Shown here: positions 16,071 to 18,512 of the stretch, one piece after another
Numbering within the stretch: position 1 is the first letter of the stretch
How the letters are laid out: each line of letters starts with the position of its first letter
Assembly (NCBI RefSeq): GCF_014207985.1
Contig: NZ_JACHMI010000001.1
Coordinates: 3,827,001 to 3,891,000, forward strand
DNA: 64,000 nucleotides
DNA from: Nonomuraea rubra
GTDB taxonomy: Bacteria; Actinomycetota; Actinomycetes; Streptosporangiales; Streptosporangiaceae
Reading direction: 5' to 3'
Made by a program: the position numbers and the translations under genes
Notes under the pieces: model-generated
What the model was told of the DNA's origin: nothing
The model's input: only the letters and a program-made list of their open reading frames with translations
The model's database searches: none

Positions 16071-16212
16071 GCGCCGCCTCGTCGGGGCGGCAGGCTCCGC
16101 CAGGGTCGACGCGGATGATCACCCGGGGCGGGCGGGCGGCTCGGCGGATAATCAGATGTGCTGCGGCGCGCCTCTCGCTAACGTGGAACTCAGCTTCACG
16201 AAGCCCGGAAAG

Positions 16213-16285
16213 GCGCGGGTCGAAGGGGTGTCGGTTATCTTTCTGTAACAAAGAACAATCCGGCGCCCGGAAAACATATCCGCGC
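16213..16285 (+). ncRNA. Y RNA 1 (minimal, no tRNA-like module)
   Basis: The ends GCGCGG (16213-16218) and CCGCGC (16280-16285) pair. The 5' strand then has the unpaired GTCGAA, and the inner stem pairs GGGTGTCGG (from 16226) with CCGGCGCCC (ending 16268) over nine positions, including two G.T pairs. The loop begins TTATC and is only about 25 nt, with a small TTCT/AGAA hairpin. The opposite strand of the internal loop ends CATAT. The GGTCGA-stem-GGTTATC order resembles vertebrate Y RNAs (GGUCCGA-stem-GUUAUC) that bind Ro60. It is the first of four such units before the Ro60 gene. Exact transcript ends and promoter are unknown. Confidence 0.7.
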
Positions 16286-16299
16286 TACTCCGGGTCGAG
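16275..16299 (+). promoter_or_regulatory. Permuted Y-stem motif after Y RNA 1
   Basis: CATAT-CCG, eight bases, then CGG-GTCGAG. The protein-binding strands of a Y stem occur here in swapped order, closed by an 8-nt loop. The left strand is the 3' strand of Y RNA 1, so this fold would compete with that RNA. The same arrangement recurs in the Ro60 leader. Confidence 0.4.
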
Positions 16300-16314
16300 C
16301 GGGGCTGGTCAGGT

Positions 16315-16464
16315 CTGGTGCCGGCACGGGTCGAATCTCATCGGTTATCGCCTCTCAAGCGGGAGACGCGGGTTCGAATCCCGCCGCGGACTCCGGTTCG
16401 TGTGGCTCAGTGGCCCAGAGCGCCTAAACGGCCGGTGGGTCTCCCATATCCGCGCCGGTTCCAG
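16315..16464 (+). ncRNA. Y RNA 2 with tRNA-like module
   Basis: Outer stem CCGGCaCGG (16321-16329) pairs with CCGcGCCGG (16450-16458), with CTGG/CCAG extending it. After unpaired GTCGAAT the inner stem CTCATCGG pairs with CCGGTGGG and is followed by TTATC. The module then has a T-arm (GCGGG-TTCGAAT-CCCGC, 16368-16384) and later a D-arm (GGCTCAGTGGCCCAGAGC, from about 16404). T before D is the reverse of a tRNA: the Y stem takes the place of the anticodon arm, and the acceptor ends are joined internally. This matches the tRNA-mimicking bacterial Y RNAs (YrlA type). Confidence 0.82.
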
Positions 16465-16486
16465 GCCTGATCACTCGCCGGTCCTA

Positions 16487-16632
16487 CCGGTGGCACGGGT
16501 CGAATCCGATCGGTTATCTCGATTCTGGTTCGAGGAGTCCGGGTTCGAGTCCCGGCAGGCGTTGAAGGCGCCTGTGGTGTAATCGGCAGCACACTGAAGG
16601 GCCGGTCGGAGTGCCCACATCCGTGCCGCCGG
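16487..16632 (+). ncRNA. Y RNA 3 with tRNA-like module
   Basis: The best folded unit. GGTGGCACGG (16489-16498) pairs along its whole length with CCGTGCCGCC (16621-16630), extended by CC/GG. After GTCGAAT the inner stem CCGATCGG pairs with CCGGTCGG, then TTATC. The T-arm is CCGGG-TTCGAGT-CCCGG (16539-16555). It runs straight into a capping hairpin CAGGCG/CGCCTG (16556-16574) in place of the acceptor stem, and then a D-arm GTGGTGTAATCGGCAGCAC that resembles the D-arm of tRNA-Gln. A GCCGGC-AAG-GCCGGC hairpin at 16628-16642 overlaps the 3' end and may end or delimit the transcript. Confidence 0.85.
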
Positions 16633-16655
16633 CAAGGCCGGCGAGCGTCAGGCAT

Positions 16656-16803
16656 GGGGGAACGGGTCGAAGTCCCATCGGTTATCGGGCACAGATTGTC
16701 GCAGGTTCGAGTCCTGCCCATCCCGCCGGCGACGGCGGGTGGTAGCTCAGTCGGCAGAGCGTCTGTTCAAAACGCCGGTGGACGTCACCACATCCGCTCC
16801 CCC
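16656..16803 (+). ncRNA. Y RNA 4 with tRNA-like module
   Basis: GGGGGAaCGG (16656-16665) pairs with CCGcTCCCCC (16794-16803). The inner stem CCATCGG pairs with CCGGTGG, preceded by GTCGAA and followed by TTATC. The T-arm is GCAGG-TTCGAGT-CCTGC (16701-16717), the acceptor-like cap CCCGCC/GGCGGG (16722-16739), and the D-arm GGTAGCTCAGTCGGCAGAGC (16741-16760). A tRNA finder could call pieces of it, but the arm order and the missing anticodon arm exclude a true tRNA. Its 3' strand ends 47 bp before the Ro60 start codon, so the unit is partly in the leader of that mRNA unless processed or separately transcribed. Confidence 0.83.
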
Positions 16804-16843
16804 TCGCACACATCCGCCTCCCAGCGGGTCGAACGGAAGGAGC
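16796..16843 (+). promoter_or_regulatory. Ro60 gene leader: permuted Y-stem motif next to the Shine-Dalgarno
   Basis: CACAT-CCG (16809-16816), eight bases, then CGG-GTCGAA (16825-16833), directly followed by the AAGGAG ribosome binding site at 16837-16842. GCTCC at 16796-16800 could pair with GGAGC at 16839-16843, closing the stem and hiding the site, but GCTCC is also the 3' strand of Y RNA 4. This suggests that folding or Ro60 binding controls translation (inference). Confidence 0.45.
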
Positions 16844-16850
16844 GCCGCCC

Positions 16851-18512
16851 ATGGCACGTGACCCCCTCGCCGCGGTATCGGCGATCAACACCCCGCAGAC
16901 GCAGCCGATCCCCGGGCGGAGCGACCAGGTGAAGAACGCCGCCGGCGGCTACGGCTTCGCCAAGGACCTGTGGGCCAAGGTGGAGGATTTCCTCATTCTG
17001 GGCACCACGGGCGGCACCTACTACGTGTCGGAGGGCGAGCTGACCGCCAGGAACGCCGGCGTGCTGTTCGAGGCGATCGCCGAGGACGGGCCGCGCGTCG
17101 TGCGCCTGCTGACGGACATCTCGACGGCTCGCCCGCCGCGGGCGCCGAAGCAGCGCCCGGCCCTGTTCGCGCTCGCCGCCTGCTACGCGAACGGCGACGC
17201 CGCCACCCGCCAGGCCGCCAAGGTGGCGCTGGCCAAGGTGGCGCGCACGACCGACCACCTGGCCCAGTTCTTCGGCTACTACAAGAACCTGGGCGGCAAG
17301 CCGACCGCCCGCGGCATCTCGCCCACGGCGGGCCGTTCGCTGCGGACCGCGCTCGGCTCCTGGTTCCTGGCCGGCAGCGCGGACGACGTGGCGTTCAAGG
17401 CATGCAAGGCGCGCCAGCGCAAGACGCCCCTGGGAGAGGCGTTCGACCTGCGGGACGCGCTGCGCATCGCGCACCCGGCAGCCGACGACGAGCAGCGCAG
17501 GACGCTGTTCGGGTGGATCGCCGGGAACGTCACCGATGAGCGGGCCCGCGAGGTCCTGCCCGCTGTCGACCGGTTCCTCACGGCGAAGGCCGTGACCGGC
17601 CCGGCCCAGGCCATCGAGGTGGTGACCACGGCGAAGGTGCCGTGGGAGTTCCTGCCTGACGCGGTGCTGCGCGACCCCGGCGTGTGGGAGGCGCTGATCG
17701 AGACGGTCGGCATGACGGCGCTGATCCGGAACCTCGCCCGCATGACCCGGCTGGGCACGCTCAAGCCGGGGGTGGAGGCGACGTCGCGGGCGGTGCGGAG
17801 GCTGACGGACCGGCAGGCGGTCCTGCGCGCCCGGATCCACCCGATGGACGCCTGGCTCGCCCTGCGCGTCTACAAGTCGGGCGTCGCACAGCCGAACCCG
17901 CGCGCCGACCGGCAGAGGTGGCAGCCCATCCCGGCCGTGCTCGACGCGCTGGAGGAGACGTACGAGCTGGCCTTCGGCACCGTCGAGCCGTCGGGCAAGA
18001 GGCTGCTCGTCGCGGTGGACTCGTCCGGGTCGATGAGCTGGGGCGGCGGGGTCCGGGTCGGGGGTTCGCCGGTCGGGTCGCCGTACGAGGTGGGCAACGC
18101 CATGGCGGTCATGCTGGCCCGCATCGAGCGCGGTGGCGTGCACGTCATCGACGTCGACACGCGGGTGCACGCGTCGAACGTGACGCCGCGCACCAACCTG
18201 CGCGAGATCGCGTCCTGGAAGCCGTCCGGCGGCGGCACCGACCTGTCGCTGCCGTTCACGTGGGCGCGTGAGCAGCGGATGGAGGTGGACGGGTTCGTCG
18301 TCTTCACCGACAACGAGACCTGGGCGGGGCGGTCGCACCCGACCCAGGCGCTGAACGCCTACCGGCGCGCCGTTCGCCCGGACGCCCGGGTGGTCGTGGC
18401 CGCGATGACGGCCGCCGGGTACTCGATCGGCGACCCGAAGGACGACGGGGTTCTCAACGTGGCCGGGCTGGACGCGTCGTTGCCGCTGGTGGTCAACGGG
18501 TTCGTGCGGTGA
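16851..18512 (+). CDS. rsr: TROVE domain RNA-binding protein (Ro60/Rsr orthologue)
   Basis: A ring-shaped Ro60-type protein of 553 residues, the normal size. Residues 15 to about 370 are the TROVE helical-repeat domain: QTQPIPGRSDQVKNAAGGYG and ARNAGVLFEAIAEDGPRVV at the start, then repeated helix pairs. From about residue 385 a von Willebrand A domain follows, with an intact MIDAS motif DSSGSMS near 390, then SGGGTDLSLP and VFTDNETW. Ro60 proteins bind Y RNAs and misfolded RNA and, in bacteria, can link Y RNA to the exonuclease PNPase in RNA decay or rRNA maturation under stress. AAGGAG eight bases before ATG supports the start. Four Y RNA genes lie directly upstream on the same strand. No rtcB or pnp gene is adjacent. 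Confidence 0.94.
   Translation: MARDPLAAVSAINTPQTQPIPGRSDQVKNAAGGYGFAKDLWAKVEDFLILGTTGGTYYVSEGELTARNAGVLFEAIAEDGPRVVRLLTDISTARPPRAPKQRPALFALAACYANGDAATRQAAKVALAKVARTTDHLAQFFGYYKNLGGKPTARGISPTAGRSLRTALGSWFLAGSADDVAFKACKARQRKTPLGEAFDLRDALRIAHPAADDEQRRTLFGWIAGNVTDERAREVLPAVDRFLTAKAVTGPAQAIEVVTTAKVPWEFLPDAVLRDPGVWEALIETVGMTALIRNLARMTRLGTLKPGVEATSRAVRRLTDRQAVLRARIHPMDAWLALRVYKSGVAQPNPRADRQRWQPIPAVLDALEETYELAFGTVEPSGKRLLVAVDSSGSMSWGGGVRVGGSPVGSPYEVGNAMAVMLARIERGGVHVIDVDTRVHASNVTPRTNLREIASWKPSGGGTDLSLPFTWAREQRMEVDGFVVFTDNETWAGRSHPTQALNAYRRAVRPDARVVVAAMTAAGYSIGDPKDDGVLNVAGLDASLPLVVNGFVR

Follow-up and report, generated by a model that had tools for sequence, protein, structure and literature searches.

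A tandem Y RNA array upstream of Ro60 in Nonomuraea rubra: permuted tRNA-like modules with anticodon-like arms and a leader hairpin related to the Ro-binding site

The window analysed here is a 64,000-nucleotide stretch of the Nonomuraea rubra genome (contig NZ_JACHMI010000001.1, positions 3,827,001 to 3,891,000). Its + strand carries a gene for Ro60 (Rsr) and, upstream of it, four tandem units, U1 to U4, delimited by covariance models and sequence; the 3' end of U4 lies 47 bases before the Ro60 ATG (16851) (Table 1). A first-pass annotation of this DNA had described four such units with a common order of elements, which sequence and covariance models confirm at 16209-16803; it had overlooked a hairpin between U4 and Ro60 that is related to the Ro-binding site of the units. 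The Ro60 reading frame matches Pfam PF05731 with 74.8 bits (cut-off 23, in two stretches) and PF25045 with 146.4 bits (cut-off 27.7), and its K186, R190 and H208 align with Xenopus Ro60 K170, R174 and H187, which we take to be Y RNA contact residues. The best solved relative is PDB 2nvo, Rsr of Deinococcus radiodurans (E 4.9e-80, residues 5-553), and among named records the nearest Ro60 proteins are from Nonomuraea species, headed by N. thailandensis (91%). Judging from both domains and the full-length match to a solved Rsr, the predicted product is a genuine Ro60/Rsr.

Table 1. Positions of the Ro60 gene, the upstream Y RNA units and their elements in the window
Feature	Position	Strand	Description and evidence
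U1, minimal Y RNA	16209-16289	+	outer and inner stem only, without tRNA-like module
U2, Y RNA with permuted tRNA module and anticodon-like arm, Glu-CUC-like	16320-16459	+	R3 118.6 bits, E 1.1e-23
U2 anticodon-like arm	16348-16362	+	stem UCGC/GCGG, loop CUCUCAA at 16352-16358; column covariation, 43 orthologous segments
U2 T arm	16368-16384	+	sequence; Rfam YrlA alignment
U2 D arm	16402-16421	+	sequence and tRNA comparison
U3, Y RNA with permuted tRNA module, Gln-CUG-like	16489-16630	+	R3 110.9 bits; minimum free energy fold with four hairpins
U3 anticodon-like arm	16518-16534	+	5-bp stem, 7-nt loop UUCUGGU; minimum free energy fold
U3 T arm	16539-16555	+	minimum free energy fold and tRNA comparison
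U3 D arm, likest tRNA-Gln(CUG)	16574-16592	+	local score per base 0.84, next isotype 0.53
U4, YrlA-like Y RNA with three-arm module	16656-16803	+	R3 116.7 bits; Rfam YrlA 43.4 bits, E 3.1e-7; minimum free energy fold
Leader hairpin	16805-16834	+	Ro-site strands in permuted order: CACAUCCG 16809-16816, CGGGUCGAA 16825-16833
Ro60 Shine-Dalgarno region GGAAGGAG	16835-16842	+	sequence; directly 3' of leader hairpin
Ro60/Rsr gene	16851-18512	+	553 aa, TROVE and vWA_Ro60 domains

All four units share the Ro-binding site, an outer stem in which CGGGUCGAA faces CAYAUCCG, and they fall into three architectures: U1 is minimal, U2 and U3 contain a permuted tRNA with an anticodon-like arm, and U4 is YrlA-like with three arms. 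The distinct structural classes of the earlier description therefore stand, but their number rises from two to three, U2 and U3 having the anticodon-like arm. In U4, the place of this arm is occupied by the stem ACAGA/UCUGU (16691-16695 with 16762-16766). Against the gathering cut-off of 69 bits, the Rfam family RF02553 (YrlA) scores U2 at 28.4 bits and part of U3 at 21.6 bits, U4 reaches the value in Table 1, and U1 is not matched; judged by these scores, the array units are not filed as members of that family. Because the Rfam model finds three of the four units, all under its cut-off, covariance models of our own were built for tRNA-like units (R3), minimal units (R2) and the leader hairpin (R1). 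U1 reaches 68.5 bits with R2 (E 3.6e-13) and 44.9 bits with R3, and its architecture also emerges from the minimum free energy (MFE) fold. Within the 12.9-Mb genome, a search with a unit-derived model, in which scoring was limited to the best 150 first-look candidates, returned the four array units as the sole full-length copies, together with five weaker partial matches spanning neighbouring tRNA genes.

The array is conserved in relatives. At E 1e-3, Ro60 searches matched 31 of 54 genomes of the genus and 61 of 297 of the order, including fragments and weak paralogues. From the genome-search matches and 47 loci of named records, a set of 57 distinct loci was drawn, each with a Ro60 gene and the DNA upstream of it; outside this set fall L027-L032, L060-L064, L103 and L107-L111 (Ro60 fragments, paralogues or loci without upstream DNA). 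R3 and R2 together find two to four units at 56 of the 57 loci, a count that includes likely tRNAs at one of them (L082). Written with m for minimal and T for longer units, letters assigned by length, the arrays are mTTT (16 loci), mT (14), TT (14), mTT (7), TTT (3), mTTm (1) and TTTT (1), and one locus has none; two of the four tRNA-like matches of the TTTT locus, L082, are probably ordinary tRNAs. Some short third units (103-131 nt) contain no D arm detectable by regular expression. The minimal unit, when present, leads the array (38/57 loci). At L005, an extra last unit is minimal (63 nt), its tRNA module apparently lost, which shows the modularity of these RNAs.

The tRNA-like alignment (A3) comprises 76 rows out of 93 candidate units and the minimal alignment (A2) 25 out of 26. 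In A3, 434 pair cells are changed on both sides against 149 in shuffled alignments, and 95.9% of cells are paired; in A2, the values are 67 against 24 and 94.9%, and none of 500 shuffles reaches them in either case. Counts of pairs with any both-side change are less clear, with 19 against 16.4 for tRNA-like units (reached by 8/500 shuffles) and 11 against 9.5 for minimal units (96/500). The pairs beside the internal loop are invariant and hence give no covariation signal. When each tRNA-like unit of the 16 mTTT loci was compared with those of the other loci, its nearest neighbour stood at the same array position in 47 of 48 cases, indicating that U2, U3 and U4 are distinct, old genes rather than recent copies. 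The suggestion of the first-pass annotation that each unit may steer Ro60 to a different partner would fit this positional orthology. The identity of the units as Ro60-linked Y RNAs is thus well supported, both gene adjacency and a conserved stem with compensatory changes being observed. The first-pass annotation had read compensating stem changes as a sign of a selected fold beside Ro60 and had made its proposal depend on stem conservation in related genomes; the stems are kept there, and their covariation lies far above that of shuffled alignments.

The Ro60 family shows further variation in relatives. Two same-genus genomes (L030, L032) encode a second, distant TROVE-like protein of about 23-27% identity, each with its own Y RNA pair upstream; an anticodon-like hairpin is present in three of the four units. 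In the single genome of Spongiactinospora sp. TRM90649 there are three Ro60 loci (L076, L082, L097), which differ in identity to the query. Genus genomes such as G001, G039, G041 and G043 contain Ro60 fragments, alone or beside a full gene, which suggests that the system was lost or decayed more than once in the genus.

A permuted module in the order T arm, acceptor, D arm is present in U2, U3 and U4 and absent from U1. Taken with its arm, the U2 module can be read as an entire tRNA in circular permutation, of Glu-CUC-like type, and that of U3 likewise as a Gln-CUG-like one. ARAGORN called a tRNA in 39 of 43 U2 modules re-ordered to tRNA order, but in none of the 43 piece sets in native order and none of 860 shuffled ones; across 116 whole units in native order it gave no match, and in the window it called no tRNA at 16.2-16.8 kb. 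A first, cruder re-ordering, in which 57/116 were called, was replaced by the refined one. Compared with 64 predicted tRNAs of the same genome, the U3 module is closest to tRNA-Gln(CUG) (55/70 positions, runner-up 51), a lead that is clear in the D arm and not in the T arm, and the U2 module is closest to tRNA-Glu(CUC) by a narrow lead (56/71, runner-up 55).

The feature that sets U2 and U3 apart is an extra hairpin, located between inner stem and T arm and closed by a loop of 7 nt. In U3 it belongs to the MFE fold, with a mean pair probability of 0.57. For U2, alignment A4 holds 43 orthologous segments, 35 of them distinct; it excludes L017, L036 and L042, in which U2 is lost or unclear, as well as L026, L043, L045-L048, L050, L059, L078, L082 and L093, which have one tRNA-like unit each, either U4-like or degenerate, and the L011 loop, off by one in the alignment, was placed by hand. 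In A4, 94.5% of the arm-stem cells are paired against 74.1% in shuffles, and the covariation score is 0.415 against 0.138, with slid partners at no more than 0.06; neither value is reached by any of 500 shuffles. Cells changed on both sides number 19 against 5.5.

The U2 loop has a pyrimidine at position 32 in 43/43 segments and U33 in 42/43, and its variation is greatest at positions 34 and 35. Among 42 ungapped loops, which contain 15 different triplets, positions 36-37 read UA in 28, GG in 7, CA in 6 and UG in 1, and positions 36-38 read UAA in 27. In tRNAs, U36A37A38 is the determinant of t6A, and G36G37 is the determinant of m1G formation by TrmD. The combination expected of a tRNA mimic with an anticodon arm, a covarying stem and a 7-nt loop with U33, was therefore found; the single-copy fold backs U3 and not U2.

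Similar modules occur elsewhere. A phylum-wide R3 search matched 13 of 396 genomes, four of the matches (L166-L169) reading as ordinary tandem tRNAs. In a second actinobacterial genus (g64), 122 of 246 genomes match R3, some only partly and probably through tRNA pairs, and 40 further stretches were fetched out of roughly 150 listed matches. Regular expressions found 105 distinct permuted modules, nearly all from g64; 56 contain a 7-nt hairpin with a stem of 4 bp or more, of which 47 have it at the anticodon position, and 49 have no such hairpin, so that armed and unarmed module types coexist in this genus as well. All 47 arms have C32, U33 and A38, 44 have U36 and 44 have A37, while positions 34-35 vary (CAU, GAU, CUU, GUU and others), giving 10 triplets.

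Ro-like proteins are known in phages (sections of PMC7824862 and PMC7765460), where 340 records were found, and extracts of PMC9569102 and PMC8190616 mention YrlA matches in a prophage of Mycolicibacterium and in some mycobacteria. At ten phage loci with Ro genes, R3 found Y RNAs; the five Rfam YrlA matches there all lie under the gathering cut-off, and ordinary tRNA genes are nearby in 7/10 stretches. Out of 22 model matches, 12 were examined for the arm, the remainder looking like minimal units or tRNAs. A script looking for at least 3 bp, a 7-nt loop and U33 found arms in 7 of the 12, in L279, L280, L281, L282 (two), L283 and L288; the hairpin of L284 is a second choice only, that of L286 was spotted by eye, and L285, L287 and one L282 match have none. 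In Microbacterium phage SM23 (L288), an annotated tRNA-Asn (1192-1258) falls inside a Y RNA unit (1187-1324) whose loop reads GUU. In Gordonia phage Sixama (L282:4105-4596), tRNA-Arg, Y RNA, tRNA-Gln, Y RNA and tRNA-Ile alternate downstream of the Ro-like gene.

The hairpin in the Ro60 leader has the layout CACAUCCGCC-loop-GCGGGUCGAA, in which both Ro-site strands are reversed in order and the stem is closed on the outer-stem side. Its invariant pairs, including the G-U and U-A beside the internal loop, coincide with the pairs that are constant throughout the Y RNAs. In the N. rubra genome, the Ro60 leader is the sole significant match to R1 (38.9 bits, E 3.3e-7), and the runner-up (E 0.067) lies within an open reading frame that reads like a siroheme synthase. 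A genome scan with the exact pattern gave 37 matches (control 13) and was set aside, most of them being chance-like.

A regular expression recovers the leader element at 42 of the 57 loci, with both halves exact in 36, at most one mismatch per half in 3 and two in 3. Shuffled leaders reached these classes 0, 51 and 1486 times in 5700, and upstream windows 0, 1 and 84 times in 340; only the exact and one-mismatch classes carry weight, because shuffles often reach the two-mismatch class, and the rows of the latter (L044, L050, L051) are weak on their own. Without L050 and L082, 40 rows remain in the leader alignment. Identity among them is 86-99% in the strands and 38-42% in the flanks, a contrast that is partly built in because the rows were chosen by motif, and the hairpin ends 14-22 bases before the start codon. 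The flanks pair with the Shine-Dalgarno region in many folds; in the N. rubra fold, GGAGCG (16839-16844) is able to pair with CGCUCC (16795-16800) in the 3' arm of U4. Inter-unit junctions also match R1, with long inserts and 13-27 bits, and from these weaker matches the leader hairpin may have arisen from such a junction.

Taken as a whole, the observed genes, structures, covariation, orthology, arm anatomy and leader conservation are best explained by U2 and U3 acting as tRNA decoys, together with autoregulation through the leader, a reading to which we assign a probability of roughly 0.6. We infer transcription of the array, binding of its RNAs to Ro60, decoy function and autoregulation. 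The four Y RNAs would share one handle for Ro60 and diverge at the opposite end, yielding a set of Ro60 particles of which one is bare, one YrlA-like and two dressed as whole tRNAs. U1, with a bare inner stem loop, could only occupy or gate the Ro60 ring, and U4 would present the known three-arm, YrlA-like tRNA mimic. U2 and U3 would add a tRNA-like body and an anticodon-like loop that has features of real tRNAs and a triplet differing between species. Their most likely role would be to make a Ro60 particle resemble particular tRNAs, serving as bait or competitive decoy for enzymes whose target is the anticodon arm of tRNA, such as anticodon nucleases and modification enzymes; alternatively, they may bring Ro60 and a nuclease partner to damaged tRNA. 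When Y RNA is scarce, free Ro60 would bind the Y-RNA-like hairpin beside the Shine-Dalgarno sequence and probably repress its own translation, a repression relieved when Y RNA soaks up Ro60. Sequestration of the Shine-Dalgarno region by an inner stem has weak support and is kept as a possibility. In a wider and clearly more speculative version, actinobacteria and their phages may use Ro60 particles with anticodon-bearing decoys, whose triplets would be under diversifying selection against tRNA-cutting enzymes and whose t6A37 or m1G37 determinants would be kept to let the bait receive the modifications of a real tRNA, with Ro60 sensing free Y RNA via the permuted mRNA site.

Several observations weigh against this interpretation. 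The U2 arm of the window lies outside the MFE fold: forcing it costs 1.2 kcal/mol and rearranges the inner stem, and its mean pair probability is 0.08. Two of the five U2-arm measures are not above shuffles (both-side pairs 2, shuffles 1.8; further pair types 4, shuffles 5.2), counts for which only four pairs are available. Many units have no arm at all. ARAGORN still called tRNAs in 626 of 860 modules in which only the anticodon arm had been shuffled; its test therefore speaks for the acceptor, D and T arms, and as proof of the anticodon arm it was rejected. The triplet it reported equals the loop reading in 27 of 39 modules, with 10 register-shifted and 2 odd or incomplete. The leader element is absent from 15 of the 57 loci (no match by regular expression in L006, L011, L012, L016, L026, L052-L059, L076 and L078, of which L052 and L054-L058 belong to Herbidospora, judging from their identity to named loci). 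Its core pairs hardly vary and thus give almost no covariation, and a flank-swap p of 0.027, uncorrected for kinship, supports the Shine-Dalgarno pairing weakly. A search for sigma-70-like promoters found none.

The same observations bear on other explanations of the array. That the units are artefacts or ordinary tRNA pseudogenes, as the tRNA-Asn annotated over part of such a unit in one phage record might suggest, is highly improbable and already contradicted by the shared Ro-site stems, their covariation, the linkage to Ro60 and the failure of ARAGORN to call any unit in native order. The anticodon-like arms could instead be passengers, brought along as modules were re-acquired from tandem tRNA gene pairs and decaying afterwards. 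The junction of a tandem pair already has the order T arm, acceptor, acceptor, D arm, the Y RNA model gives partial scores to tandem tRNA pairs of the N. rubra genome, the U3 module resembles the genome's own tRNA-Gln most, and some units and lineages are without an arm. We nevertheless regard this origin as unlikely, given that in at least two genera the stem covaries and U33 and A38 persist beside varying positions 34-35, a pattern unlike decay, and that U2 is orthologous by position across genera.

Somewhat less improbable is a purely structural arm, which would stack to shape the module for tethering PNPase or another partner and leave the triplet free and unread. It would leave U33 and the match between positions 36 and 37, which obey tRNA rules, unexplained, and U4 and 49 of the 105 modules from the second-genus search manage without an arm; the free variation at 34-35 would fit it, as would the binding of Salmonella YrlA to PNPase described in passages of PMC9879122 and PMC8394870. 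For the leader, about the same limited chance is left to a collapsed inter-unit junction that would serve the array in processing or termination instead of being a Ro60 site. The junction matches to R1 agree with this idea, but the leader reproduces the invariant Ro-site pairs including G-U and U-A, lies 14-22 bases from the start codon in 40 rows across genera with diverged flanks, and has no visible U tail. Decoy function of U2 and U3 combined with leader autoregulation remains the preferred explanation. A conserved loop framework with a changing triplet in bacteria and phages makes the decoy idea directly testable; if the leader hairpin mediates feedback, it would be a simple means of matching Ro60 dose to Y RNA dose.

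Among the nearest known systems, the likeness to Deinococcus radiodurans Rsr is one of the protein (2nvo). Minimal Y RNAs such as YrlB are not known to carry a tRNA module, and U1 has none. Permuted tRNA genes, which exist in algae and archaea, share the circularly permuted order, but the module described here sits inside a Y RNA stem and carries no hint of processing to a tRNA. YrlA (RF02553; Salmonella, PDB 6CU1) has the same Ro-binding outer stem and the same circularly permuted T arm, acceptor-like hairpin and D arm, a layout found in U4, whereas U2 and U3 add, at the place of the anticodon arm, a 7-nt-loop hairpin that the Rfam consensus does not contain. That 6CU1 is circularly permuted relative to tRNA is already published (excerpts of PMC11472068), and the D, T and acceptor arms of YrlA and their modification by DusA and TruB have been reviewed (parts of PMC8394870). 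Portions of PMC7790460 name aid to tRNA decay and competitive inhibition of an anticodon nuclease as possible YrlA roles, and report no detection of fragments derived from YrlA itself. In the excerpts returned by literature searches, no anticodon arm in a Y RNA and no Ro-site leader was recognised; these leave the central primary papers uncovered and priority uncertain. The Salmonella rsr-yrlBA-rtcBA RNA repair operon likewise holds a Ro protein and Y RNAs together (passages of PMC7790460 and PMC9879122), but the Ro60 gene described here is not beside RtcB, the three RtcB-like loci of the genome (C1: 6365814, 1013806, 639007) all lying away from it. In Salmonella, yrlB and yrlA stand side by side next to rsr (as given in part of PMC9879122), whereas here the array lies upstream of Ro60, with the minimal unit first in 38 of the 57 arrays.

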